A stretch of 64,000 bases of DNA from assembly GCA_003194525.1 (NCBI GenBank), contig NBIV01000075.1, forward strand, positions 238,432 through 302,431, read 5' to 3'. The first letter of the stretch is position 1, and each line of letters starts with the position of its first letter. Origin of the DNA: Gracilariopsis chorda (lineage: Eukaryota > Rhodophyta > Florideophyceae > Gracilariales > Gracilariaceae). Position numbers and translations under genes: made by a program. Under the pieces are notes generated by a model, which did not search any database, was not told the DNA's origin, and worked only from the letters and a program-made list of their open reading frames with translations. Positions 39,119 through 63,785 of the stretch are shown one piece after another.

Positions 39119-41926
39119 CTATACCATACAAGTAATTGAGAGACCCAGAGCTTGACAATGACGATTGTGAACTTCTGTCAGCAGTCCTTTGGTCATAATG
39201 TCTGCCAACAACAACGAACTGGGAAGATAGCTCAGTTGAACAGATTTCTTCTCAACATGGTCACGAACCAGGTGATACCGAACGTCACTGTGTTTCGGTC
39301 TCTCACTGCATAAGTTTTCATTCGATAGGGCCAACATGCCCTGATTGTCTCCATGAATAACAGTACCCTCAGGATTGCCAATTCGTAGATCTTTCATTAG
39401 TTGCCGAAGCCAAATACATTCACGGATGGCAAAAGCCATCGCCAAATACTCAGATTCCACTGTTGATTGTGCAACAATCGATTGCTTCTTAGATCTCCAT
39501 GAAATTGTTGCTCCAGAAAGGATAAATCCAAATCCACTTGTCAATTTGCGATCACATACATCACCAGAAAAATCCGCGTCACTATAGCCTACCAAAAGGC
39601 CATCTGTCTTCTTTTACAGGAGTTCCATATACTTCGTACCCTTGAGATAACGAAGTACTCTCTTTGCGGCCTTCCAGTGGTCACTTCCGTACTTGTGCAA
39701 AAAACGAGATAAATAACCAATAACAATCCAATAAGTTCACGATAAGGGACATCAGTGCGTCGCTCATCAACTTCTGTAGCCAGAAGCTTTGTGCCGGGAA
39801 CCGTGGGAGTAGCAACAGATGAGCAATTCGCCATTCCAAAACTTTCAAGAGCATCCTCGATCAATGGAGCATTATGAATCTTAATTGATCCGATAGCAGA
39901 CTTTTCAATGACTAGTCGCAAGAATTTGCTATCATCCGTTTCAATTCGAATCTCGACATGCTTTGATAACTCTTTGACAAAGTGTTGGACGTCCTTCTTG
40001 TTTTTTCCAGCGATTAGAACATCATCGACGTACAGTACAAGCACAATCACCGTCTTGCTCTCATCATGAAGTAGATACAGAGAACCATCAGCAGAAGAGG
40101 CAACGGCACCAAGACTGAGCAGGATAGAGTGCAAGAATTTTTGGAACGCTCTAGATGCCTGCTTCAAGCCATAAATAGCTTTCTTCAGCCGATACACCAG
40201 ATTTGTCTTGCCGCGCACTTCAAAACCAAGGGGTTGCTCCATGTACACTTCTTCTTCAAGTGTGCCATAGAGAAAAGCCGCCTTGATGTCCAGTCTCATG
40301 TAGCACATAGACTGATCGACTATCATAGCCAATAACATCCGAACAGTGGTATACTTGGCTACAGGTGCAAAGACTTGAGAGTAATCTACACCACACTGCT
40401 GCATAAACCCTTTTGCAACTATGCGAGCCCTGTGTCGCGTCACCTGACCAGAGTTGTTACGCTTGCGGTCAAAGACCCATCTGCATGGTATAGGTCGCGA
40501 CCGATTCGGCAGGTTTGTAAGCTCAATCACTCCTCTTTGTCGCAGGTTCTTCATTTCAGCACGCATTGCACTATGCCACTGTTCACGTTCACTACTTCCC
40601 ATAGCCTCATCGTAAATACAAGGCAAATCCAGACTGCAGGCTCCCATCACACAACGTAGTTGCAAGGCCAACATAGCGTCTGGTGTGTACCTACTTGGGG
40701 CTTTACGTATTCTGCTTGACCGTCGTGGCTCTTGTGGATAATGAGTGACAAGTTCCGGGTGCACATTTCCAAACTCATCCAGAAACTCCAACTCCATCAA
40801 GTCTTCATTGTCCTTGGCATTATTCCCTTCCGTAGCAGTCGCAAAATCTTCATTATCCACTTCATTTCCACTTATCTCCATATCTTCGCTTCCTTCATCA
40901 TCACTGCCAAATAAATCGGATAGACTGGTACCATCTTCTCCGCGATTCTCTGTTGGCCAGCCAAGAATCGACTCATCGAACTGGACATCTCTTGAGACAG
41001 AGAAAGTACCACTATCTGGATAGTAAATTCTGTAAGAATTTCCTCTTTCAAATCCGACGAGTATGCCCTTTCGAGCCCTCGGACCAAACTTTCCATCTCT
41101 CTTCTCCTTCGGAATGTGCACGTAGGCTAAGGAACCAAAAGCTCTGATGTAGGATAAGTTGGGACGTGTTCCGAACACTTTCTGAAAGGGCGTACTGCCT
41201 CCATCAGAAGCGGAGGTGTATATAGCATTCCGAATATGGTTTGCAATATTGATAGCCTCAGCCCAAAGCCTACTCTGTCCAGGAAATGAGGATAAAGATG
41301 ATAACATCGTCCTCGCAGCATCATTCAAGGTCCGATTCAGTCGTTCCGCTTTTTCCATTCGATTGAGGGCTGTATGGTGCTGTCGGCTGCTTCTTGACGC
41401 CTCGTTCAGAGAGCCAGTTCTGCAAAGTTTTGGAGAGGTACTCTTTGGCATTGTCGAACCTGATACTCTTCACATGCTTATCCAAAGTGGTTTATAGCTC
41501 AACAATCATTTCTCTGACAGCAGCCGGAACTTCAGAACGTTTCTGCAGGAACCTGACCATCAAATAAGCACTCTTGTCATCATATAATGTCACATAGTAC
41601 TTGGCACAACCAATCGATGCGATGCGTATTGGTCCAACAACATCAGTGTGTACTAGGTCACCTGGTTCTTTCGAATGATGATTCACATGGAGTGCGGGCC
41701 CAGTATCTCGTACAGACTTCGATACCTTGCCGTCATCGCATATACCCCACTCAGAAACATTCTGCAACGGAACACCATTCACAAGCGGGAAAGTCTTACG
41801 AAGATGGTCTCTGCACGTGTGCTTCAGTCGACGGTGCCTTAGGAATGATTCTTTCACCTTCGTCTTGGAAACTAAGGCCGCACTACCTGCACTGGCAACG
41901 GACGGTTTCAGTAATGCCGTGTACAA
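39119..41926 (-). pseudogene. Copia B pol: integrase, RT, RNase H
   Basis: Spread over four frames. 41492-41926 holds the integrase N-terminus and first Asp (LVHTDVVGP). After a TAA at 41492-41494 come RFDNAKEY (second Asp) and SPQSNGK with the Glu, and a frame shift near 41350. ORF 39589-41451 continues with LWAEAI, the GILVGFE block, and a full RVT_2-type RT with LDIKAAFLYG and the active site YVDDVLIAG. ORF 39119-39595 is RNase H (YSDADFSGD, SWRSKKQ, STVESEY, HGDNQG). All are typical Ty1/Copia blocks; the frame breaks near 39590 and 41350 and the stop make it non-coding as read. Confidence 0.85.
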
Positions 41927-41935
41927 TCCAGTCCG

Positions 41936-43132
41936 TTATGACGCAAATCCCAGGAGACACATCTTGTTCGTCTTTGGGTCAGTTACAGTACAAGTACCAT
42001 ATCCCTCTCGTTCATCACTTCGGAACGTTATGACTAGACCTTTCTTGCACATACACCCAACAGAGAGAAGATTGAACTTCAAATCGGGAACATACAGCAC
42101 ATCAGTGAGTGTAACAAGGTTGGTACTACCATAAGCAACAGTACTTGCATGTATGTTGCCTTTCCCATGCACAAGAATATGAGTTCCATCTCCGAACTCA
42201 AAACTCTCACGCGTTGATCTTTCCAACGTCTCAAACAGGGAACGATCATTACACATGAGGGCTGTTGCCCCAGAATTGATGAACCATTTCGGGCGGGATT
42301 CATGGCTGTCACATCCCAAGATGAGCGCTCTGGCAACATTTGAAGCCTTACCTGTGTCCAACACCAGACTTTCCGTCTTCTGCTGCGGTGGATGGTACTT
42401 CTTGCTCTCAGGGTTCGCATAACAGTTGACCTTCTTGTGTCCAGACTTACCACAGTAATAGAATTTGATCTTCGACTTCATCTTAGGCTTCTGACGAGTA
42501 CGTAATGCCCTTGTAACTTTGCTGGAAAGTTCAAGACTGGAAAGGTAGGTTGCTTCTTTAGAAATGAGCAGCGCAAGAGATTTCGATAGTGACTTGTCCA
42601 TTCCCCGAATGACTTCTGCAGTGACCCCAAATTCCTCACACAGGCCACGTAGCAAAGCGCGTACCTGTTCTGCTTCGGAAGAGTTGTAGCCAATCCGTCC
42701 ACGTTGGGACTCCAGTTCAGAGAGACGAGCGCGAAATTCAAGTACAGTTTCACTTGGTTTCATCTTCATTGCCTGATAACGGTCCAAAAGACCATCCCTA
42801 CTAGCTTGCGATACAGCCTGGTTCTGTTCCTTGAGAGTGTTCCATACAAGAGATGGATCTCGCATATCCATGACAGGGGCAACACAGGAGTCACGCACTA
42901 AAAGCAAGATGGTAGACAATGCTAGTTCCTTACGGCGATCGAATTTCCGAACATTTTCGTCATCTTCTCCTGGCGGAGATTCGGAGCCTTCGACGATGCT
43001 CCACAGTCCCTTGCTACGTAAAACCAGTTCAACCTTCCGGTACCGGTGAAAGTAATTTGTTGACATAAGCAGCGGTAGACGAATTTTATTCACGTCAACA
43101 ACAGAAGTACGTTCATCCCAATCTTCGTTCAT
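41936..43132 (-). CDS. Copia B gag-protease
   Basis: 398 aa open from ATG. Gag capsid-like N-terminus (UBN2-type), then FYYCGKSGHKKVNC, a zinc knuckle whose first Cys is missing. The protease motif WFINSGATALMC has Asn in place of the catalytic Asp of D-S-G-A, predicting loss of peptidase activity. The block LTDVLYVPDLKFNLLSV, usual between Copia protease and integrase, is intact. The pol frame follows after a stop at 41936-41938. Confidence 0.8.
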   Translation of the reverse strand: MNEDWDERTSVVDVNKIRLPLLMSTNYFHRYRKVELVLRSKGLWSIVEGSESPPGEDDENVRKFDRRKELALSTILLLVRDSCVAPVMDMRDPSLVWNTLKEQNQAVSQASRDGLLDRYQAMKMKPSETVLEFRARLSELESQRGRIGYNSSEAEQVRALLRGLCEEFGVTAEVIRGMDKSLSKSLALLISKEATYLSSLELSSKVTRALRTRQKPKMKSKIKFYYCGKSGHKKVNCYANPESKKYHPPQQKTESLVLDTGKASNVARALILGCDSHESRPKWFINSGATALMCNDRSLFETLERSTRESFEFGDGTHILVHGKGNIHASTVAYGSTNLVTLTDVLYVPDLKFNLLSVGCMCKKGLVITFRSDEREGYGTCTVTDPKTNKMCLLGFAS

Positions 43133-46279: not shown

Positions 46280-46284
46280 AACTT
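46280..46284. repeat. Target-site duplication of Copia C, left copy
   Basis: AACTT; the right copy is at 53307-53311, immediately after the second LTR. Confidence 0.8.
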
Positions 46285-46550
46285 TGTAACAGCCTGTCCT
46301 ACTAGACAGTCCTATCACTAAGATCACTATCACTACCCAGATGTAGTTCAGTGAGCTCGGGCGCTGCTCGCGCTGCTGAGGAGGATACTCGGAGCATTTT
46401 TGGCTTGGACTACTCAATAAATTGGGCCGGACCAACCGGCCCGGGGAAGCGAAGGCAAGAAGCCCAAGAAGAGATTCAATCGCTCCTCGTTCCCCTTTCT
46501 GTGGGCTGACGAAGAAGTCCTCGAGCGCGACCATGTCCAACTCTACCCCA
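46285..46550 (+). repeat. 5' LTR of Copia C
   Basis: Bounds are fixed by the second copy at 53041-53306 and the target duplication. Holds an AATAAA signal (46416-46421) and a perfect GC-rich hairpin (GGGCCGG 46424-46430, CCGGCCC 46436-46442). No canonical TATA box seen. The gag ATG lies inside, at 46533. Confidence 0.92.
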
Positions 46551-47858
46551 GTTATGGGCCCAGCTCCAACACTCCCAAAGTCGCTCGCTCCCAGCGACCC
46601 GCCAATGTTTGACCCGCAAGGCGACTTCCAAGAGTACAGGAAGGATGTTACGCGATGGGTCGAAACTATTCAGGCAGCTGCAAACCTTGGAGAGGACAAA
46701 ATGTACAAAACCGTGTACGCTACAATTGGTCGCCAACTATACGACCGCGGTTTGTTCAGAGAGCAGAAACGTGTTGTTGACGAAGCACAAAGAAGTAAGC
46801 TCATCGATTACAAACAAGATGATCAACTTCAGGCTGTCAAGGAAATCGTTCAGCTGATTGCTGTCGACCCTCCTATTGCAGTAGTCACTCGCCTCATCAC
46901 CTCTTTTACACAGGTCATGCAGTGCAAGCGTCGCCGTAGTGAAGATTTGAAGGCTTTCGTCGCTCGTTTCCGAAGTCTTGCTGCCGATCATTTGATGCAT
47001 GTGGGTGTCTCGACTTCGTCACAGGTTAGCGAAGTATTGGCCATTACACTCCTCAATAATGCCATGCTGAGTGAAGAAACATTGACGAATGCGATTCTTC
47101 AGTTGGTTGCTTTAGCTGAATCTCGCAAAAAGGTGGACGCTGATCTTAAAATGTCGATCAACTCCTCAACGCATCAGGCTCTGCTCCAAATGTTCGATAG
47201 GTTATCCGATCTTGTGGAAAATGACGAAACAGTACCACAGCCTACCGACAACGCTAATACCGTTCGTCGCAAAGCTACTGACATGGTACAAGGTGTTAGT
47301 CAACTCCTGGACTCGAACAGGGAGCAGATCGATCATCTTAAAACTGGAAGCAACGAAACGCATACTAACGACGATATGTTCTCGACAACTCCTCGACGTC
47401 GCTTGAATCTCGATGACGCAGTCACGGTGATACGAAACCTTGCTTTCACTTCGAAGAAGATGGAAAAGCAGTACACCAAGAACGACATCGAGAACATTGC
47501 TACTCAGCGCGTCGACAACCTGGTTGAGAACCGTATCCAAAGAGCTCTCGCTGCCTTCCAAAAGCATTCCGATAACCCTGGTTCAGCCTCGTCTCGCAGA
47601 CCATCCGATCTCAGTTCTCGTAATCGCTTGTCGAAAGGTAAACAAGGTTCGAACAAGAAGCGCAGAACGGACATCAAGGATACGTACTGCTACGATTGTG
47701 GGAAGAGGGACCACATCAGAGGCGACTCGCAATGCAAAGAACCGAGTTTCCAGACCAAACGTCTTCGAAAGGAAAAATACGCTCATCAAAAGCCACCTGA
47801 CACCAACGACAAGTCTTTTCGTCAGGGCTCCAACCCCTCTCAACGCAGTCATCTTTAA
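46533..47858 (+). CDS. Copia C gag
   Basis: 441 aa from ATG 46533, which lies 18 bp before the LTR end; the frame reads through the LTR border and primer-binding site as MSNSTPVMGPAP. A second ATG (46553, inside the primer site) would remove seven residues. The middle is a helical capsid-like domain (GDFQEYRKDVTRWVETIQAA ... LLNNAMLSEETL). Near the C-terminus, CYDCGKRDHIRGDSQC is a zinc-knuckle variant with a longer last spacing. The tail is rich in Lys, Arg and Ser, suited to nucleic-acid binding. It packages element RNA into virus-like particles. The last 58 bases overlap the pol frame. Confidence 0.85.
   Translation: MSNSTPVMGPAPTLPKSLAPSDPPMFDPQGDFQEYRKDVTRWVETIQAAANLGEDKMYKTVYATIGRQLYDRGLFREQKRVVDEAQRSKLIDYKQDDQLQAVKEIVQLIAVDPPIAVVTRLITSFTQVMQCKRRRSEDLKAFVARFRSLAADHLMHVGVSTSSQVSEVLAITLLNNAMLSEETLTNAILQLVALAESRKKVDADLKMSINSSTHQALLQMFDRLSDLVENDETVPQPTDNANTVRRKATDMVQGVSQLLDSNREQIDHLKTGSNETHTNDDMFSTTPRRRLNLDDAVTVIRNLAFTSKKMEKQYTKNDIENIATQRVDNLVENRIQRALAAFQKHSDNPGSASSRRPSDLSSRNRLSKGKQGSNKKRRTDIKDTYCYDCGKRDHIRGDSQCKEPSFQTKRLRKEKYAHQKPPDTNDKSFRQGSNPSQRSHL
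46551..46565 (+). promoter_or_regulatory. Copia C primer-binding site
   Basis: GTTATGGGCCCAGCT directly after the LTR, complementary to the initiator tRNA-Met anticodon arm (AGCTGGGCCCATAAC in eukaryotic initiator tRNAs). Confidence 0.75.
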
Positions 47859-50800
47859 CTGCGGGGGAAGGAGCCAATTCGGACATCATAAGCTTTTCAA
47901 CTGATCCGAACCCCATTATCGACCCTGGTTGTCCAAAAAGGGTTGGTGGACTCGACTCTATTGCCCAACTTTGCACGTCAATGGGGATAGAAATAGTTCT
48001 GGAAGATCTTGACTGCTCGCCTTTCCTCCATGGTTTTGGCAAAGACTGTGTAAATGCCAAACCAACGTTCGCCAAATGGACTCTCCACAGCAGTGATGAG
48101 AGAGAAAATTCGTTTTCCATCCATTTCTACGTCGTTGAAGGAACCTGCCCTTTGCTCATTGGACTTGACGTTCTTTCACAATGCGACATTCTCGGCGAAC
48201 AAAGCCAGATCAAAGCCCCAACAGGAACTGTCTCGAACTCTGTCCCGGTTGTTATACCAACTTACCACACAGGAAGTGACTTGAATAAAAGAATTCATAT
48301 CCTGCTCGTTCCTTCATGCACAACTTCCGTAAGATCGATGTTGGCTCAACCCAGGAAAGGACGCTCTGCCAAGAAACTAATCGAAAATGAGGAACGATTC
48401 GCGAAGCGTTTCCACCTCTACACACACTTCAATCCAAGGGACATGAAAAGGATTTGTAGCCGTGCAGGAGTACTAACCAGAACCTTGGAGTCACTGCTAA
48501 GTGAGGCGTACTCATCTTGCAAGACCTGTGCCTCAACAGGAAGGCCACTTGCATCTCGCAAGGTTTCGTTTTCTCGGTTGTTGAAAGAGTTCAACGAACA
48601 TGTGCAGTTGGATTTCATGTTCATCGCGGAACTTGGAAACCTTCCAATTTTACACATGAAGGACGCTGCAACGGGTTTTTCTGCAGCGGCCCTGTGTTTC
48701 TCACGCACAATGAAAGAAGCGTCGAAGTGTCTCAATACCCACTGGATTAGCATCAACGGACCACCCGTTGAACTATCAGCGGACCCTGAGTTCTTCAAGG
48801 GCGACTTCTTAACCATGTGCGCCTCACACAACATCCAATACAAACCTCGGCCTGCACGACGCCACAACAAGTTAGGCATTGCAGAATCATCTCATGAAGC
48901 TATTCGATATTTTGCCCAAAAGCTCATTAAGGAAAGAGGCTTCGCTGCCGCTAACGGACTTCCAGTTCACTCTGATCAAGAGATTGTCGCTCGAGCGGTC
49001 TTTCTTAAGAACAGTCTCACAGGCTCAAGATTCATGTCAAGTTTTGAACTTGCGCGTGGATACCGTCCCGCATTGTCAGGACTCGATCAGACCCCCGTCA
49101 GCAAGCAGCTTCTCTCCGCATATTACGAGAAAACTGCTCGCCATGCTCTCCATCGCTTCATTCGTTCGAGGAATGTGAACTGCCTCCACCGAACTCTCCT
49201 TAAACCTAGCACCCCTGTGTACTTCTTCAAAAAGGGAACCAAACGAGGAAAATGGTATTCCGGATTCGTCAAGGAAGCGAGTGAACACTATGTAATCGTA
49301 TCCTCGACAAAGAATCTCAAAGGATACAGCCATACGGTAGCGTATGAAGACTTACGCCTCCAACCCAAGTCTAACCTACTTCGCGAAGTGGAAGAAATAG
49401 AACTTGGATGGAATGAACTTGTCCTTGACCGGGCCACAAATCCAACCTCGGAAAGTCCAATTTCACCACCCGTTGACAACACACAAAACAACGAGTTAGT
49501 GACAGTGTCAGATGACCTACCAACTCTTTTTCCATTCGACACTGACTTCAACCAATCCGACTATGCCGATTGGAATGATCATCCCTCTAGCGTTGCTTAC
49601 CTTGCTCAAAGCGCACTGGTCACACCAGTCAACCACCCGTCAAAGGATATTGGTCAGTACGCCTCAGTCAAGAGCACCGTGCCTAAATCCACGACCTTGA
49701 CCTCCGCGAAGCAGACAATACTCCGAAACCTCTATCAATGTCTCGGCAACGAACCTTTGTCGGAGCATAAACTTCAATGTGCCCCACGTTGGTTGCTAGA
49801 TGAGGCTATTGAAAAGGAAAAGAAGTCATATGCCGAACGGAAGGCCTATGTACCTGTTTCCATACGCTCTCTTCCTCGTAATGCCAACTTGATTTCGTCA
49901 CATCACTTCTTCGTAATCAAGCACGATGGGGAAAGCAACCAGTTGAAACTGAAGTGTCGTCTTGTTCCTCATGGTAACAAAGACAAGCAGAAGCACGATT
50001 TGCGCTCTGATTCCTCAACGGCCCAGTTTCCTACTCTTAGATTGCTTCTATCTCTTGCGACAGTGTTTCATTTCACTCTCGCCTCCCTTGATGTAAAATC
50101 CGCATATCTTCAAGCTGGAAAACTGAATAGGGACATTTACATGAAACCTCCACGAGGATGGACGAAATTTGTCGATGAGGTATGGAAACTCCTAGCCCCA
50201 GCCTACGGCCTCGTAGAGTCAGGCCGGCTTTGGAAACTCTGTGTTGAGAACTGGCTCTTTGAGCAGGGATTCGTCGATCTTCCTGGTGTTCCTCAGTTCT
50301 TTCTTCTGTGGAAGAGAAGTAAGCTCACGCTTATCCTTGCCAAAGTTGTCGACGACATGATCTTCGCTGGAAAGCCTGAAGCTATCCAACAATTCCAGAA
50401 GTCCATATCTGCGAAGTTTGATGTTGGAAGATTCAGCTCTGAGTCAGACATCGTGTCCAATCGTCTTTTCATTCGACAACACCCAGACTTCTCCGTATCC
50501 ATCAACATGGATGAATTCCTGAGCTCAATTACCCGTATTGATCTCACCCCTTCGCGCAAGAAACAAAACGATGAACCTTGCACGCTACAGGAAATCGGGG
50601 AATATCAGAGACTAACTGGCAAACTGAATTTCCTGGGACATGGCATACTCCCGCAAGCTTCTCTTGTCGCTAGCAAGATGCAGCAATATGTGTCGAAACT
50701 CAAAGTGTCAAACATTCGTCAACTTAACGCTGCCCTGACACACATTCGTTCCCTGAAACCTCACCTTTACTTCAAATCTCCGCAAGAACCACTTCAAAGC

Positions 50801-51343
50801 AAACCTGAGCTTCTCCAAGTACTCAGCCTGAGTGATGCAGCCTCTGGAACGTCATCGTATGGACAAACCGGCTCGCTAACTGGCGTAATATTCGACTCGA
50901 AGAATGGCATTGTGCACCACCACATCGATTGGCATAGCTCAAAGCAAAACCGTGTTTCATTCTCATCGGCTGGCGCAGAAATCCTGGCAGCTGCGTACAC
51001 AGCTGATCGAGCAATCCACATGTCTGAAACCCTTGCCTACATTATGTCAATGAATGGGAATCGACCACGCCCTCGTCTGACACTCCTGGTCGACTCAAAT
51101 GGTCTTTTCACCACCATTTCGACTCTCCACGAGCAAAAGGACTTTCGATTGAGACCCACGGTCGCTCGACTACGTGATTCTTTTGAATCGAACGAGATCA
51201 ACAAGTTGATTTGGATACCGGGACCCTTGAACCTAGCTGACGCATTGACAAAGATCAACCCTCACGCCTTCAAGTACTTGAACCAATCGATGACGGAGGG
51301 ACTCATTCCGGAATCATTGCAAAAGTTTCTCAACGCTTCCTAG
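47801..51343 (+). CDS. Copia C pol: protease, integrase, RT, RNase H
   Basis: The frame opens after TGA 47798-47800 and lies in the -1 frame relative to gag; the first ATG is at 47981. Protease: IIDPGCPKRVGGLDS (upstream of that ATG) with D-P-G for D-S/T-G, then PLLIGLDVLSQCDI. Integrase: C..C zinc region, VQLDFMF (Asp), LSADPEFFKG (Asp), GIAESSH (Glu). RT: LASLDVKSAYLQAGKLNRDIYMKPP and the catalytic VVDDMIFAG. RNase H: LSDAASG, SSAGAEILAA, LVDSNGL, NLADALTK. Since the protease precedes ATG 47981, expression should need -1 frameshifting or another start. It copies RNA into DNA and inserts it into the genome. Confidence 0.9.
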   Translation, partial: HQRQVFSSGLQPLSTQSSLTAGEGANSDIISFSTDPNPIIDPGCPKRVGGLDSIAQLCTSMGIEIVLEDLDCSPFLHGFGKDCVNAKPTFAKWTLHSSDERENSFSIHFYVVEGTCPLLIGLDVLSQCDILGEQSQIKAPTGTVSNSVPVVIPTYHTGSDLNKRIHILLVPSCTTSVRSMLAQPRKGRSAKKLIENEERFAKRFHLYTHFNPRDMKRICSRAGVLTRTLESLLSEAYSSCKTCASTGRPLASRKVSFSRLLKEFNEHVQLDFMFIAELGNLPILHMKDAATGFSAAALCFSRTMKEASKCLNTHWISINGPPVELSADPEFFKGDFLTMCASHNIQYKPRPARRHNKLGIAESSHEAIRYFAQKLIKERGFAAANGLPVHSDQEIVARAVFLKNSLTGSRFMSSFELARGYRPALSGLDQTPVSKQLLSAYYEKTARHALHRFIRSRNVNCLHRTLLKPSTPVYFFKKGTKRGKWYSGFVKEASEHYVIVSSTKNLKGYSHTVAYEDLRLQPKSNLLREVEEIELGWNELVLDRATNPTSESPISPPVDNTQNNELVTVSDDLPTLFPFDTDFNQSDYADWNDHPSSVAYLAQSALVTPVNHPSKDIGQYASVKSTVPKSTTLTSAKQTILRNLYQCLGNEPLSEHKLQCAPRWLLDEAIEKEKKSYAERKAYVPVSIRSLPRNANLISSHHFFVIKHDGESNQLKLKCRLVPHGNKDKQKHDLRSDSSTAQFPTLRLLLSLATVFHFTLASLDVKSAYLQAGKLNRDIYMKPPRGWTKFVDEVWKLLAPAYGLVESGRLWKLCVENWLFEQGFVDLPGVPQFFLLWKRSKLTLILAKVVDDMIFAGKPEAIQQFQKSISAKFDVGRFSSESDIVSNRLFIRQHPDFSVSINMDEFLSSITRIDLTPSRKKQNDEPCTLQEIGEYQRLTGKLNFLGHGILPQASLVASKMQQYVSKLKVSNIRQLNAALTHIRSLKPHLYFKSPQEPLQSKPELLQVLSLSDAASGTSSYGQTGSLTGVIFDSKNGIVHHHIDWHSSKQNRVSFSSAGAEILAAAYTADRAIHMSETLAYIMSMNGNRPRPRLTLLVDSNGLFTTISTLHEQKDFRLRPTVARLRDSFESNEINKLIWIPGPLNLADALTKINPHAFKYLNQSMTEGLIPESLQKFLNAS

Positions 51344-51368
51344 GTTGTCTTTCTTCTACGTTCTATCG

Positions 51369-52769
51369 CTAGCTCCTAGCTCTCTTTCGCATTCGCTTCG
51401 ACGAACCATTTCTACTCTTCCGGTGCGAGACCATTCGCTCCACTATCATGCGTATCTCGAGTACTTTCTCGAAATTATTGGTATCTCCCAAACAACACCT
51501 CAACGATTCTTCGCTCAGCTGAAGCGGATATTGTTCGACAGCATCCAAGATCTGTCTCAACTTCGCGTCAACACAGACAACGTGATCCACATTCCTTCCT
51601 CGCAGTCGAACAAGGAAGACCCCGTCGGTTTGTCCTAACAACCAACCAATTCTGTCTACCGACCGCTCCTTGCTGATGCATACCCTGTTCAGCGCCACCC
51701 TTTTCGCGTTGTTGTTGATCCATTTACTTGCACTGGTAAATGAGATCATGACCGGGATCGTTCCGTTGAGCATCACTTCCCGAGCGTATTCGTGACCGAT
51801 TGCCCTCGCAATTCCATTAACCAATGATGCCTGCAAGCATAGTTCCCTTGTTCGGCAAATCTCCATACGCTCCTCCTTAAGTGCGAACCTTTTTGATTCT
51901 TCAGTCACAGGTCGCGCTCCGCAACTAGAGACCCGAATCGGCACAAACGGATTACGGACGCAGTAGTAGTCAAGGCATTCAACTGCATCCACACAATTGG
52001 TGGGATGTATTGTGGTGGAGTCCGTCAAGTAATCGTGCTCAGTACTGAAGGGTATGCCCCCATTCCAAATACCCTGATGTGCCAATACATTCACCAGTCC
52101 AACTCCACTAAGGGTATACAAGTTCACTTCATGCCAACCATAACGCGGTTCATCATGATTTCTACCATAGTACCGGGGACCAACTACTCGCTGTACACCT
52201 ACTGAAGTTCGCAGCACCGTACTGTGCGGGATGAACATAACCGTGTCCACACCCCACTCTTCTGCACTCTTCTCCTGTTCATACAACCCCATGCGGAATG
52301 CAAGATCATGGTGCAAGTATTTTCCTGGCCGCTCGAAGCACCACTGGGTTATGGCACTCCCTGCAATTTTCTTCATTTCTTCTCTTCTGACCAGACGATG
52401 GTCGCCACACAAATGCTCCAGCATGTACCGCTCACGTCCATTGCAGTCCCGTCTCGCAATCCTAATTACTTCTTCCATGACCCATTTCACATCCGACGAT
52501 CGTGTACACGTAAGCCTCGACTGGCTATTGTCACCATGCTCATATAGCACCACCCCGCTGTGGTCTCCTGCAGCTTTGGCCATGAACGTTCGAACACTTC
52601 GTGATTCTCCAAGCGCGCCGAGTCGCGCATCGTGCCATGCTCCCCGTTTCTTTATCATGCGTTTCATTCTGGCTCTGCCTACTTCTGTTGTTCGGTTATC
52701 GCACTGCTTCGCTACGCCGCCCTTGTTTCGCTTTGGTATCCACAAAGAGATGCACGGCAATGCCTCCAA
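51369..52769 (-). CDS. Antisense ORF of Copia C: possible papain-fold cysteine protease
   Basis: 466 uninterrupted codons on the strand opposite to gag-pol, filling the space between pol (stop at 51343, 25 bp away, tail to tail) and the 3' LTR. The C-terminal third has a pattern like papain-fold enzymes: ELCLQASLVNGIARAIG with Cys311 before a helix, GVFLVRLRGRNVDHVVCVD with His396, and QILDAVEQYPLQL with Asp409, a plausible Cys-His-Asp triad, then LRCCLGDTNNFEKV. The first 300 residues are not recognised. The C-terminus is strongly basic (HRKSRNGSSKRMRKRARS), a possible nuclear signal. A TATATAA element lies about 90 bp upstream. Family assignment is tentative; length and intactness make it a real gene candidate. 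Confidence 0.7.
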   Translation of the reverse strand: MEALPCISLWIPKRNKGGVAKQCDNRTTEVGRARMKRMIKKRGAWHDARLGALGESRSVRTFMAKAAGDHSGVVLYEHGDNSQSRLTCTRSSDVKWVMEEVIRIARRDCNGRERYMLEHLCGDHRLVRREEMKKIAGSAITQWCFERPGKYLHHDLAFRMGLYEQEKSAEEWGVDTVMFIPHSTVLRTSVGVQRVVGPRYYGRNHDEPRYGWHEVNLYTLSGVGLVNVLAHQGIWNGGIPFSTEHDYLTDSTTIHPTNCVDAVECLDYYCVRNPFVPIRVSSCGARPVTEESKRFALKEERMEICRTRELCLQASLVNGIARAIGHEYAREVMLNGTIPVMISFTSASKWINNNAKRVALNRVCISKERSVDRIGWLLGQTDGVFLVRLRGRNVDHVVCVDAKLRQILDAVEQYPLQLSEESLRCCLGDTNNFEKVLEIRMIVERMVSHRKSRNGSSKRMRKRARS

Positions 52770-52857
52770 GCCCCTCCTAGTTACTCAACTAGTGGGCTAT
52801 TCACTGGCGTTGCTACCGAGACAAGCACACGACTCGACGGCGGCGGCGGTGGCTTCT

Positions 52858-52864
52858 TATATAT
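52858..52864 (-). promoter_or_regulatory. Candidate TATA box of the antisense ORF
   Basis: TATATAA on the minus strand, 89-95 bp upstream of the ATG at 52769, between the ORF and the LTR. The spacing allows a short 5' leader. Confidence 0.4.
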
Positions 52865-53029
52865 TGTCCACACTACCGCGCCGTGTCGGTCAAAGCCGAC
52901 CGCTGTTCAAATTTTCCTGTCGGTTCTACTGTTTCAAATCGCTTTGTTCTACTAAGAAGTTTTTTTTTGTGTGCGAACTGCATATCGTTCCGTCCGTTAT
53001 TGTCCGCAAAGTTCTGCCCCGTTCCGCAC

Positions 53030-53040
53030 AAAGGAGGGGG
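53030..53040 (+). promoter_or_regulatory. Polypurine tract of Copia C
   Basis: AAAGGAGGGGG directly before the 3' LTR; such tracts prime plus-strand DNA synthesis. Confidence 0.8.
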
Positions 53041-53306
53041 TGTAACAGCCTGTCCTACTAGACAGTCCTATCACTAAGATCACTATCACTACCCAGATGT
53101 AGTTCAGTGAGCTCGGGCGCTGCTCGCGCTGCTGAGGAGGATACTCGGAGCATTTTTGGCTTGGACTACTCAATAAATTGGGCCGGACCAACCGGCCCGG
53201 GGAAGCGAAGGCAAGAAGCCCAAGAAGAGATTCAATCGCTCCTCGTTCCCCTTTCTGTGCGCTGACGAAGAAGTCCTCGAGCGCGACCATGTCCAACTCT
53301 ACCCCA
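53041..53306 (+). repeat. 3' LTR of Copia C
   Basis: One base different from the 5' LTR over 266 bp. It includes the gag start codon as a passive copy at 53289. Confidence 0.92.
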
Positions 53307-53311
53307 AACTT

Positions 53312-59064: not shown

Positions 59065-60273
59065 ATGCCCCCGCAAGCGAGACCCGGTCCAGAGCACGCC
59101 TCAGAGCACAGACAGCCAGCTCAACTTCCCGTACAGCAAATCCGTCGGCTCAAAACGGTGCAACCGGACATCAGCCACCTGCCGCTCTGTCCCCACTACA
59201 CCAGCCGACCGCCGAATTGCCGCATACGGATGACGCAGCTACCTCCCGTTCATCATCTCCGAGACCACAAGGAATACTTCCAACATCCCTTCTCGAAATG
59301 ATCCAGCAGCAGCAAGCTTCATTGGATGCGTTAGCCGCCCAAGTGAGCTCCCTGACCGAGACGGTCGCAGCTGTTTCTCCCGCATCCGGGACTACAGTTC
59401 TTGCCACACCCACCCGCCCTTTGGACACTACTCCGGTGGACCCACCATCCCAGCACCAACCCAGAAGACCACCCCTTCTTTTGAACGTGTTGAAATCGTC
59501 AAACTTTGCCACTTATCATGGGAAGGAATCTGAACGGACTTCGGTCAAAGTTCGTTCCTTTATCTCAGGTATCAGAAAAGTGACAAACGTTGTGCTCTAG
59601 CATTTCTGACGCTCAAGAAGTTGACATTGCCGTCTGTTTATTACGTGACCACGCAGATATGTGGTACGCTCGCGCAACTCGCGATGGCATTTCGTTCCCG
59701 AACCTCTCAGTTCTGCAAGAGGCTATGCTAGCCGAGTTTGTGCCTGCAAACGAACGTGCAATGGCTCGTGTTGCTTTGATCCAACTGCGACTCAATGGTT
59801 CCATAGAGAGACATATCGCGAGCTTTAGAGAACTGGTCGACATCTGTCACACCCCTGTGTCTGAGGCTTTTACGTTTATGCAGCTCTCGCTACCTCTGCT
59901 TTTCCGTAAGACGTTATCCGAACGCTTTCCAGACGGTAATCCTATATCGATGTCTGAGGTTTACAACTATGTCCCGACGATCTATATCTCGGAGAAGTGG
60001 AACAATGCGAGCTCTTTCCAACCCATTCTATCCAAACGTTCTCACAAGAACAAAGAACCGTGGCAGAAAAACGCAAGTTCAAAGCATCCAGATCCGAGTC
60101 TGATCCGTAAGGATCCCGATGCTGTTTTTTGGGGACCCGCCGACGTACGAAACGCTGTCGAGAATGGTGTGTATCGCGCCAACGATCGCTGCATGAAATG
60201 TGGCAAGAAGCCTTGGAGCGACCCTCGTCACCCTTGCCGCAACATTGCCGCTGATTCCGCAGCCCAGCGCTGA
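59065..60273 (+). pseudogene. Gypsy gag, frame broken
   Basis: ATG 59065 (MPPQARPG) opens frame 1, but the convincing sequence from about 59100 to 59590 is in frame 0: Ser/Ala/Pro-rich, then a coiled-coil-like LLEMIQQQQASLDALAAQVSSLTETV, then SNFATYHGKESERTSVKVRSFISG. From 59590 the capsid continues in frame 1 (DAQEVDIAVCLLRDHADMWY, LIQLRLNGSIERHIASFRELV). The knuckle RCMKCGKKPWSDPRHPC is unusually spaced. So two frame changes are needed, at about 59070-59100 and 59580-59600. Either this copy is mutated or the sequence has errors. TGA at 60271-60273. Confidence 0.65.
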
Positions 60274-63200
60274 CCGAATCACATGGCAAAAAACTAGGAA
60301 CTTCGAACACAAGTGCGAATCCAAGCAGTTCGACGGCTCCACCGAAGCTCTCAGCCATCGACACTGCTCCGAAGGGCGAAATGATCTACGAAGGTGCCTT
60401 AAATGGCCATAAGGTTGCCTTCCACCTCGATCCTGGAGCCTCCCACGCTTTCATGTCACTGAACTCGGCTTGTCTCTGCCAGCTTTCTCTCCGCGCTTCC
60501 GCATTCCCCTTTACTGAACTTGGCAACAATTCAACAGTTCCTATCTTCTTCGAGACACAAACGCACATCTCCCTCGGCAACTTGTCTATTCCAGTCTCGG
60601 TTTACGTTATCGAGATGAATGACAAGGATAACGGTCTACCATTGGTAACTGTAGGTCGAGAATGGCTTCGTTCTGCTCGCCCGCACGTCGACTGGAAGAC
60701 CTACAACCTTACCGTACAGCGCACAAACGGTTCAAGGTTCAATGTTCTTCCTCGGCAACTGACGCCCTCCCAGGCCCGCGTGAAGAAGCCCACTATCCCA
60801 ACTGTGTCCTACAAACGCCTTCGTCGAATTGCAAAGAAGAAGGGATGCGAACTGTATGCTTTGCGCTTACGCCCGTCTTCTTCCGTCGACTGCCACCCTG
60901 AATTGGCCTCCATAGTCAACGAGCTCCGAGACGTCTTTAAAGAGGAACTACCGTATGATCTCCCTCCTCAGCAGGAACAGGACTTCGAGATCAACCTGAA
61001 ACACGACCAGCCACCTCCCGTACGGCCGGTCATTCAGCTCTCAAACGAAGAGCTCAATCTTCTCCGCAGCAAATTGGAAGAGCTCCTCACCAAAGGACTC
61101 ATCCGCCAATCTTCTTCTCCATTTGGAGCACCAGTTTTCTTCGTGAAGAAGAAGTCGGGACAGCTACGCATGGTCTGTGACTATAGAGGTCTCAACCGAA
61201 TCACCATTCCGGACGCCACGCCTCTCCCTCTCATTGAAGAAGCACTAGAACAGGTTGCCGGAGCGAAGATATTTACCCAGATAGACCTCGTGGGGGCCTA
61301 TCATCAGATGCGAATTAAGGAAGAGGACTGCCACCAAACTGCCATTCGCACTCGCTTCGGCTCTTTTGAATGGCGAGTGCTCTGCTTTGGGCTTTGCAAC
61401 GCCCCGGCCGCCTTCTCTTGCCTAATCGCCTCCGTTCTGAAACACCTCAATGGTCGCTGCCTCGTCCTGTATCTCGACGATATTTTGGTGTACAGCAGAA
61501 CAATAGAGGAGCACAAAGATCACCTCCGAGAGGTTTTTGCCGCTCTAAAGAAACACCAACTATACGCTAAGCTCAGCAAGTGTGCGTTTGGTGTAACAGA
61601 AGTGGATTTCTTGGGCTTTCATGTTTCGGACAAGGGTGTTTCTACTCAGGAACGTCTAATTACATCTATCCGAGAATGGCCTACACCTACCACACTTCGC
61701 CATGTTCAGCAGTTTGTTGGCCTCGCTAACTTCTATCGTCGTTTCGTCAAAGGCTATGCTTCTAAACTACAGCCTATCACCGATGTCATCCGCAAACACG
61801 CGTTCGAGTGGTCTACAGAGCAAGACCGAGCTTTCGCCGAGATCAAAACTGCGTTGACCACTGCACCCGTTTTGGCTCACGCCGATCCGGATAGGCGCTT
61901 TGTTCTCGCCACGGATGCATCGAAGTTCGCTGTTGGAGCAACGCTTTCTCAAGACGGACACCCAATCGCATTCATGTCGCACCGCTTGTCGGCAACAGAA
62001 TCGAACTGGGATACCGGCGATCAGGAATTGCTGGCTGTGATGATTGCTTTACGAACTTGGGGCCCCTATCTTCGTGGAAGATATTTTACTCTTCTCACTG
62101 ATCACGACCCAATCAGGTTCCTTCAGTCAAAGAGTAAGCTGACCGGGAGGCAGTGTCGTTGGCTCGACGAAATCCAAGAATACAGCTTCGAAGTCAGGCA
62201 TATTGCCGGAAAGAAGAACGTTGTACCTGACGCACTCAGCCGCAGACCCGACCACACTCCCCCGCAGCTCCACTCGCTTTCCGCGTGCATGCCGGGGTTG
62301 CACGATCGCATTCGTGCGACCTACGCCGCGGATACCTTGGCCACTGAATTGCTTTCGCATCTCAGAGACAGTTCGCAGTCCACTCCCGCCTGTCTACTCC
62401 GCTCAATAACCAACTTCAAGCTCATCGATGATCTCTTGTACCGGAAGGGGACCTCCTCTTTGAGGTTGTACATCGCTACACCAAACTTGCGATCTGAGTT
62501 AATGGATTACTTTCACGGAGTGGGACACCTGGGTGCTGATAAGACCTACTGCTCGGCTGTGCGAAGCGTCTACTGGCCGCAGATGTATGGAGATATACTT
62601 CGCTTTGTGCGCAATTGTCGCCATTGTCAGTCTAACAAGTCGTCCATGACTTGCCCGAAGGGCTTACTGATGCCCCTACCGATCCCGAATCGTTGTTGGG
62701 AGATAGTCACATTCGACTTTCTGACTGAACTTCCCCGTTCGGACTCCGGACACGATGCCATCCTCGTCTTCGTCAAGAAGCTTTCTAAGTATACTATTTT
62801 CGTTCCAACCACGAAGGATGCAACGGCGAGGGACACTATGGCTTTGTTCGACGCACATCTTTTTTCGAAGTACGGTGTACCTCACACTCTCGTTTCTGAT
62901 CGCGATCCCAAGGTCAGGTCTCGATTTTGGCGATCTCTTATGCAACTTCTCAATGTGAGGTGCAATATTTCTTCTGCTGACCACCCGCAGACGGACGGAC
63001 AATCGGAGAACATGATTCGTACCCTCTCTTCCATGCTCCGTACCTCCATTCAATCTTCGCCGTCCGACTGGAACCGCCTTTTGCCTACTCTCGAATTCGA
63101 ATACAACGCTTCCCGCCATGGCAGCACACGACGAGCGCCATTCGAAGTCATTCTAGGGTACGTCCCCCATACGTCGGTCACAAGGTCTCTTCAGCACTGC

Positions 63201-63785
63201 ACGGAACTCTCCGAAGAAGCTCTCAACTACATTGATCGTCGCAAGGCATTTGTTGCAATGGCCAGAGATAATTTGGCTACCGCAGTGTCGAAGCAAAAGT
63301 TTTACGCTGACAGGACTCGTGCAGACGTCTCGTTTGTAGTAAGAAGCTTGGTTCTCCTCCGTGCAGACAATCTTTCTCTTACACGACGCTCAAGTCTCCC
63401 AAAGAAGTGGCAACCACGTTTCATTGGCCCATTCCGCATTCGCGAAGTCTTGTCGCCAGTTACCTACCGCATTGAACTACCTGCCACCATGCGCCGAGCT
63501 CATGATGTTTTTCATGTTTTGAGACTGAAGCTATTTCACACTAACCAGCAGGGCCCGCTGGATATTGTCATTAGCAACGATGGAACGGTTGAACAAGAAG
63601 CTTGCGCCATATTGGATAAGAAAAAGTTCAATCGCAAAGTTTTTTACCTGGTCCACTTTGTTGGAGAAGCTCGTGAAGACGCGGTTTGGCTTCCTCGAAC
63701 TTCGCTTTCGAATTGCGAGGAACTGTTGGCATCTTTTCAAAACTCTAAGACTTCGCTGGGACAGCTTCAGCCCAAAACGGGGTGA
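60255..63785 (+). CDS. Gypsy pol: protease, RT, RNase H, integrase, chromodomain
   Basis: Open from the TGA at 60252-60254 to TGA 63783-63785; the first ATG, at 60381, gives 1,134 aa. Protease AFHLDPGASHAF (about residues 13-24); RT with VCDYRGLNRITIPD and YLDDILVYSR (about 364); RNase H LATDASKFAVGATLSQ and LLTDHDPI; integrase zinc region HGVGHLGADK...CRHCQ, catalytic VTFDFLTELP, VSDRDPKVRSRFW and TDGQSEN; GPFRI.EV, LPATMRRAHDVFHVLRLK; and a C-terminal chromodomain-like segment (EQEACAILDKKKFNRKVFYLVHFVG...VWLPRTSL). A chromodomain directs insertion to modified chromatin. The frame is -1 to gag. Confidence 0.93.
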   Translation, partial: FRSPALTESHGKKLGTSNTSANPSSSTAPPKLSAIDTAPKGEMIYEGALNGHKVAFHLDPGASHAFMSLNSACLCQLSLRASAFPFTELGNNSTVPIFFETQTHISLGNLSIPVSVYVIEMNDKDNGLPLVTVGREWLRSARPHVDWKTYNLTVQRTNGSRFNVLPRQLTPSQARVKKPTIPTVSYKRLRRIAKKKGCELYALRLRPSSSVDCHPELASIVNELRDVFKEELPYDLPPQQEQDFEINLKHDQPPPVRPVIQLSNEELNLLRSKLEELLTKGLIRQSSSPFGAPVFFVKKKSGQLRMVCDYRGLNRITIPDATPLPLIEEALEQVAGAKIFTQIDLVGAYHQMRIKEEDCHQTAIRTRFGSFEWRVLCFGLCNAPAAFSCLIASVLKHLNGRCLVLYLDDILVYSRTIEEHKDHLREVFAALKKHQLYAKLSKCAFGVTEVDFLGFHVSDKGVSTQERLITSIREWPTPTTLRHVQQFVGLANFYRRFVKGYASKLQPITDVIRKHAFEWSTEQDRAFAEIKTALTTAPVLAHADPDRRFVLATDASKFAVGATLSQDGHPIAFMSHRLSATESNWDTGDQELLAVMIALRTWGPYLRGRYFTLLTDHDPIRFLQSKSKLTGRQCRWLDEIQEYSFEVRHIAGKKNVVPDALSRRPDHTPPQLHSLSACMPGLHDRIRATYAADTLATELLSHLRDSSQSTPACLLRSITNFKLIDDLLYRKGTSSLRLYIATPNLRSELMDYFHGVGHLGADKTYCSAVRSVYWPQMYGDILRFVRNCRHCQSNKSSMTCPKGLLMPLPIPNRCWEIVTFDFLTELPRSDSGHDAILVFVKKLSKYTIFVPTTKDATARDTMALFDAHLFSKYGVPHTLVSDRDPKVRSRFWRSLMQLLNVRCNISSADHPQTDGQSENMIRTLSSMLRTSIQSSPSDWNRLLPTLEFEYNASRHGSTRRAPFEVILGYVPHTSVTRSLQHCTELSEEALNYIDRRKAFVAMARDNLATAVSKQKFYADRTRADVSFVVRSLVLLRADNLSLTRRSSLPKKWQPRFIGPFRIREVLSPVTYRIELPATMRRAHDVFHVLRLKLFHTNQQGPLDIVISNDGTVEQEACAILDKKKFNRKVFYLVHFVGEAREDAVWLPRTSLSNCEELLASFQNSKTSLGQLQPKTG
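60288..60294 (+). promoter_or_regulatory. Candidate -1 frameshift heptamer before Gypsy pol
   Basis: A AAA AAC, phased with the gag frame and followed at once by TAG (60295-60297). Slipping back one base here enters the pol frame. In this copy a TGA lies seven codons earlier (60271-60273). Confidence 0.5.

Follow-up and report, generated by a model that had tools for sequence, protein, structure and literature searches.

Antisense open reading frames lying between pol and the 3′ LTR, called aORF-3R, have been described in the plant LTR retrotransposons Grande, RIRE2, Retand and PvRetro13, and also in Boty of Botrytis (PMC7264820). According to the available part of that paper their function is not known, some of their proteins are nuclear, and no clear similarity has been described for them, although PvRetro13 is credited with an SMC domain and Retand with a transposase_28 domain (PMC7264820). 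Helentrons carry ORFs for OTU-like cysteine proteases, which are accessory across families and are proposed, in the available part of the source, to help transposition (PMC4067079). The LTR retrotransposons of bdelloid rotifers have enzymatic ORF3s that encode a GDSL esterase and a DEDDy exonuclease (PMC5408684, available part).

The antisense accessory ORF described here (aORF) shares with aORF-3R its position, its orientation, its presence across copies and a conservation like that of other element proteins. It differs in belonging to a Copia element and in the papain-like fold predicted for its product; none of the aORF-3R proteins is called a cysteine protease in the available part of PMC7264820. 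With Helentrons it has in common an accessory cysteine protease (here a predicted one) in a transposable element, but Helentrons are rolling-circle DNA elements and their proteases are of the OTU family (PMC4067079, available part), whereas the aORF has no Pfam OTU match and places its acid residue after the His. The bdelloid ORF3s are likewise extra enzyme ORFs acquired by retroelement lineages; they encode other enzymes, and an antisense position is not mentioned in the available part of PMC5408684. None of the titles and abstract openings listed in a search of the open-licence literature described an LTR element with a protease-like antisense ORF. The position of the aORF is already known; a papain-fold product of such an ORF was not found in the open-licence literature searched. 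By analogy, and from the available parts of the sources, the nearest precedents would be Grande, with its nuclear antisense protein, and the Helentrons, with their OTU-like proteases (PMC7264820, PMC4067079).

The window, a stretch of 64,000 nucleotides from a 91.3-Mb assembly of Gracilariopsis chorda in 1081 contigs, contains a complete Copia element at 46285-53306. Its features are as follows.

46280..46284, target-site duplication AACTT, left
46285..46550, plus strand, 5′ LTR, 266 bp, TGTAACA...CTACCCCA, one difference from the 3′ LTR
46533..47858, plus strand, gag ORF, its ATG within the 5′ LTR; gag matches in L031-L036
47981..51343, plus strand, pol ORF, 1120 aa, Copia-type reverse transcriptase
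51369..52769, minus strand, aORF, a frame of 466 codons that gives 432 aa when read from its first ATG (52667)
51372..51431, minus strand, basic C-terminal tail of the aORF, present in several subfamilies, possible nuclear localisation signal
51435..51848, minus strand, aORF residues 308-445, predicted papain-like core (structure models and residue conservation)
51837-51839, 51582-51584 and 51543-51545, minus strand, Cys311, His396 and Asp409
52290..52469, minus strand, small domain of beta strands and helices predicted for aORF residues 101-160, with a weak hint of a chromo-like character
52857..52863, minus strand, TATATAA, 190 nt before the ATG at 52667, candidate promoter element for antisense transcription
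53041..53306, plus strand, 3′ LTR, with the polypurine tract AAAGGAGGGGG directly before it
53307..53311, target-site duplication AACTT, right

The element is young: its 266-bp LTRs differ at a single base (position 220, G/C) and are flanked by the AACTT duplication, and the one-base difference named in the original prediction is thereby confirmed. Pol contains a Copia-type (Ty1-type) reverse transcriptase, found by Pfam search as RVT_2 (PF07727, E 4.7e-23) at residues 629-826 of 1120; no Pfam integrase match was found in pol. A GTTATGGGCCCAGC stretch 3′ of the 5′ LTR resembles, we assume, a half-tRNA primer site. At 46533-46575 the gag frame opens with a start codon in the 5′ LTR, and its coding sequence takes in the apparent primer site.

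The aORF reads from 52769 to 51369 without interruption, convergent to pol, with 25 bp between its stop and the pol stop (51343). Its first in-frame ATG is codon 35 (52667), the TTG start of the 466-codon frame being an ORF-tool convention only. The original prediction was right about the uninterrupted minus-strand frame and its place in the gap between pol and the LTR, but not in saying that the frame exactly fills this gap, since about 270 bp are left between its start and the 3′ LTR. The translation has Cys at residue 311 (context CLQASLVNGI), His at 396 (HVVCVD) and Asp at 409 (ILDAV); the three residues and the first two contexts had been named beforehand. A sense ORF (52231-53061, 276 aa) overlaps the aORF.

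A protein search of the same genome returned at least 100 stretches matching the aORF, down to 32% identity, a lower bound because 91 of 210 candidates were scored. These merge into 69 places, and a convergent pol lies within 1.5 kb in at least 53 of them. Some of the other 16 may truly lack pol; at least one, C116 (locus L020), does have pol by tblastn and was missed because only 127 of 704 candidates were scored in the pol search. At least nine copies span residues 1-466 at 99-100% identity; six of them are stop-free and three have one stop. Stop-free copies are also found among the diverged relatives (C369, C283 and C227 at 49-51% identity, C99 at 38%); most other long diverged copies have at least one stop. 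Like aORF-3R frames, the aORF runs against the element in the interval from pol to the 3′ LTR. It recurs across copies of the lineage with a conservation like that of pol, but it was not found in other pol clades and is less constrained than pol in young pairs. The aORF at L036 (G000:C23:60800-68000) comes straight after a gag match, and no pol match separates the two; this copy may have lost its interior by deletion or may represent a non-autonomous derivative.

In an unrooted pol tree, built on a 239-residue fragment from the window and 30 loci, the aORF-bearing elements occupy two clades: one with the window, L016, L024, L027, L029-L032 and L078, with supports of 0.31 and 0.87 at its base, and one with L033-L035 and L073-L077. 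A profile search found no aORF downstream of pol (best E 0.73) in the 14 places that make up three further groups of the tree, L059-L064 with L066-L068, L065 with L069, and L070-L072, searched as loci L049-L054 and L059-L066. Some of the Copia pol clades without an aORF (L049-L054, L059-L072) have long open pol frames. With no root and with low support at some nodes, the tree is compatible both with one old gain followed by losses and with several transfers.

Purifying selection on the aORF is evident across subfamilies. Its dN/dS is 0.25-0.43 when the window copy is compared with five decayed relatives; the L034/L036 subfamily against L040/L041/L046 gives 0.18-0.24. Values for decayed or young copies paired within a group are higher, as would be expected were change nearly free once a copy has inserted. 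The decayed relatives of the window copy give 0.49-0.79 when compared with each other, the L023 group 0.27-1.26, L033/L035/L047 0.72-0.90, L034/L036 0.64 and L040/L041/L046 0.72-1.35. When all six frames were compared in five pairs as a control, that of the aORF was the lowest in 5/5 (0.18-0.37) and showed an excess of third-position change across old splits. The only other low frame (0.27-0.42) is the sense frame that shares the wobble positions of the aORF, and it has 10-18 stop-bearing codon pairs per comparison; in the aligned region all three sense-strand frames have 9-24 each in the five pairs. The conserved antisense gene with dN/dS below 1 that had been anticipated is thus present across subfamilies (0.18-0.43, frame-specific), with values near 1 in very young pairs.

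Pol and the aORF have similar values between the window and L016 (0.28 and 0.25). In three very young intact pairs (L023, L024, L026) the aORF gives 0.92-1.26, on small counts of 6.5-8.5 synonymous changes; pol gives 0.58 for L023/L024, 0.53 for L023/L026, and 0.61 on a longer L031/L032 stretch from the same two places as L023/L026. The simplest reading of these comparisons would be long-term selection in active lineages combined with relaxed change after insertion, and recent constraint on the aORF is possibly weaker than on pol. The near-neutral young pairs also speak for a spurious ORF that arose from composition and has no function, but this is scarcely credible and is ruled out for the lineage as a whole by the stop-free copies at 38-51% identity, the convergent pol in at least 53 of 69 places and the frame-specific selection. 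It is also very unlikely that the RNA matters in place of the protein, an antisense transcript regulating the sense RNA with the open frame as its by-product: such a transcript would be complementary to the genomic RNA, and the available part of PMC7264820 discusses regulation of this kind for some retroelements, but the third-position excess and the dN/dS of 0.18-0.37 are found in the protein frame across old splits.

The papain-like fold of the product is predicted by structure models. The AlphaFold model of the window aORF protein, made with 31 alignment rows, has a mean pLDDT of 66.8 and a pTM of 0.46; by ten-residue blocks, pLDDT is 68-95 over residues 311-450 and 86-90 over residues 101-160, and it falls below 50 in residues 282-307, directly before Cys311. 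The modelled Cys311 lies in the first helix of the core (307-323), His396 in the strand 394-401 and Asp409 at the end of the strand 406-409. Foldseek against the PDB placed Josephin-2 with ubiquitin at rank 1 (E 0.0047, probability 0.99), followed by PCAT1 (ranks 2, 3 and 5), AvrPphB and streptopain. We take ranks 1-6 to be all papain-fold hydrolases; below rank 6, papain-fold enzymes are mixed with unrelated folds. A second model took as its query the ORF of L023, whose subfamily is about 50% identical. It is poor (mean pLDDT 48.7), but Josephin-2 again heads its matches (E 0.0034, probability 1.00), and USP18, USP25, an ataxin-3-like Josephin and unrelated folds also stand in the first seven rows. 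The two models are not fully independent, since sequences are shared between them. In the viral library the first match was a phage C39 peptidase (E 0.012).

The putative triad is well kept in 28 diverged copies (Cys311 in 26/28, His396 in 24/27, Asp409 in 25/27) and in 17 near-identical loci counted apart (17/17, 15/16 and 15/16), three duplicates having been dropped. Among 365 positions with a median identity of 0.5, Cys311 ranks 10th, Asp409 14th and His396 28th in conservation. The sequences show the arrangement of clan CA, a conserved Cys, His and Asp/Asn in that order, and the product likely works like a papain-fold hydrolase. Two models, of which the second is weak, and the conservation of the triad favour the papain-like core of the original prediction, but none of the three Foldseek searches (two PDB, one viral library) gave a match at E ≤ 0.001.

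Sequence searches of Pfam, the PDB, viral contigs and prokaryote genomes gave no relatives. No Pfam family scored above cut-off for the window protein or the 31-row alignment, matches being isolated and weak, and neither OTU (PF02338) nor Josephin (PF02099) profiles matched; PDB sequence searches gave no relevant match, and pattern-based scans of the viral contigs and prokaryote genomes searched found no relative. The suggestion of a captured host or viral protease found no backing in these searches; the host genome has four recognisable Josephin matches, located elsewhere than the aORF, and these do not match it by profile. Sequence homology between the aORF and Josephin is unsupported, with an hhalign probability of 0.07% against a Josephin profile (host L055 and a 6pgv_A segment).

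Josephin deubiquitinases (Josephin-2, ataxin-3; PF02099) are nonetheless the best fold match of both models and have the same order of Cys, His and acid, with a His-to-acid spacing of 13 in the aORF and 15 in Josephin-2, given the active-site residues we assume for the latter; they differ in having no detectable sequence relation to the aORF. The product appears from its models to be shaped like Josephin-2, and to say that it is a Josephin would go beyond the evidence. The residue five before Cys311 varies among Arg, Asn and Lys; known deubiquitinases have Asn or Gln five residues before the catalytic Cys.

The same fold would also suit a processing peptidase, C39-like or of another papain-fold kind, with the element's own Gag-Pol or a host protein as its substrate and no role as a deubiquitinase. 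PCAT1, which presumably carries a C39 peptidase domain, takes ranks 2, 3 and 5 of the first model, and a phage C39 protein leads the viral library, but Josephin-2 comes first for both query proteins. Moreover, since lineages without an aORF include long open pol frames, the aORF is not essential for processing in all lineages; we regard such a peptidase as unlikely, if worth keeping in mind. Somewhat doubtful too is a conserved accessory protein, catalytically dead or of a non-protease fold and with a purely structural Cys-His-Asp, that would regulate the element through binding to nucleic acid or chromatin. The missing family match, Foldseek E values all above 0.001, the basic tail and the nuclear antisense protein of maize Grande (PMC7264820, available part) are in keeping with it, but all triad residues are within the 28 most conserved of 365 positions and the first six matches of the first model are, by the classification assumed above, papain-fold.

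We favour, with a probability of about 0.62, an accessory gene of an old Copia lineage encoding a papain-like cysteine hydrolase of about 430 aa that would have its own promoter, act in the nucleus and promote transposition or counter silencing. Points that speak against this reading are the Foldseek E values above 0.001, the low pLDDT just before Cys311, the poor second model, the missing Pfam and PDB sequence matches, the failed Josephin profile comparison, the variable residue five before Cys311, the dN/dS near 1 in very young pairs, the stops in three of the nine near-identical copies, the scarcity of the TATA motif and the related pol clades without an aORF. The aORF would be transcribed from a promoter between the ORF and the 3′ LTR; in the convergent arrangement, a promoter near the 3′ LTR could yield an mRNA independent of Gag-Pol. 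The product would consist of a small N-terminal domain, a C-terminal core with Cys311, His396 and Asp409, and a basic tail by which it may enter the nucleus. To judge from the models, the most likely mechanism is that of a cysteine hydrolase acting, perhaps in the nucleus, on host or element proteins: it would cleave a protein or isopeptide bond (to ubiquitin or a ubiquitin-like modifier), and transposition would thereby be favoured or silencing lessened. Removal of ubiquitin is the leading guess at a substrate because of the Josephin match only. If the favoured reading holds, a papain-fold accessory enzyme, of a kind known from Helentrons, is placed in Copia elements. The aORF family, with an intact recent copy, many diverged relatives and protein-level selection, offers a testable function for the aORF-3R class, since its predicted active-site cysteine can be assayed.

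A more specific version, a nuclear chromatin deubiquitinase encoded antisense, with a chromo-like reader, a divergent Josephin-like core and a basic tail, seems improbable on present models. It would free chromatin or silencing proteins of ubiquitin or of a related modifier and let the element escape silencing, making this a retrotransposon with an antisense-encoded counter-silencing enzyme. In the first model, residues 101-160 are confidently predicted as a small domain that contains both strands and helices. A chromoshadow domain (6fto) appears with the second model only, at rank 10 (E 0.61, probability 0.66), and is absent from the best 50 Foldseek rows of the first; the Pfam chromo family gave no match to residues of about 93-165, and the hhalign score of this domain against the tail of a Gypsy element in the window was reached by 1/100 shuffles. 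The chromo-like character of the N-terminal domain is a hint, no more. The C-terminus of the aORF is basic in several subfamilies, a feature of many nuclear proteins.

A TATA motif stands at a similar place near the aORF start in 4/22 copies (window, L016, L021 and, as TATAAAA, L045), so a conserved TATA promoter for the aORF was rejected. Upstream of the aORF in L026, TGCTAACCTCCTTTTTGCGCCAG resembles an intron 3′ end before the ATG, with similar sequence in L023/L031, and the antisense mRNA may be spliced.

Elsewhere in the window, the Gypsy-like element with the chromodomain-like tail lies at 59590-63785, and another Copia-like element at 39589-43132 on the minus strand, both recognised by eye. 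Between 6016 and 33421, near-identical ORFs are repeated about 5.6 kb apart (6016/11668 and 25599/31215; 7326/12950 and 26910/32525); we take them to be F-box-like and CDK-like kinase ORFs, and the repeats are a recent tandem duplication.
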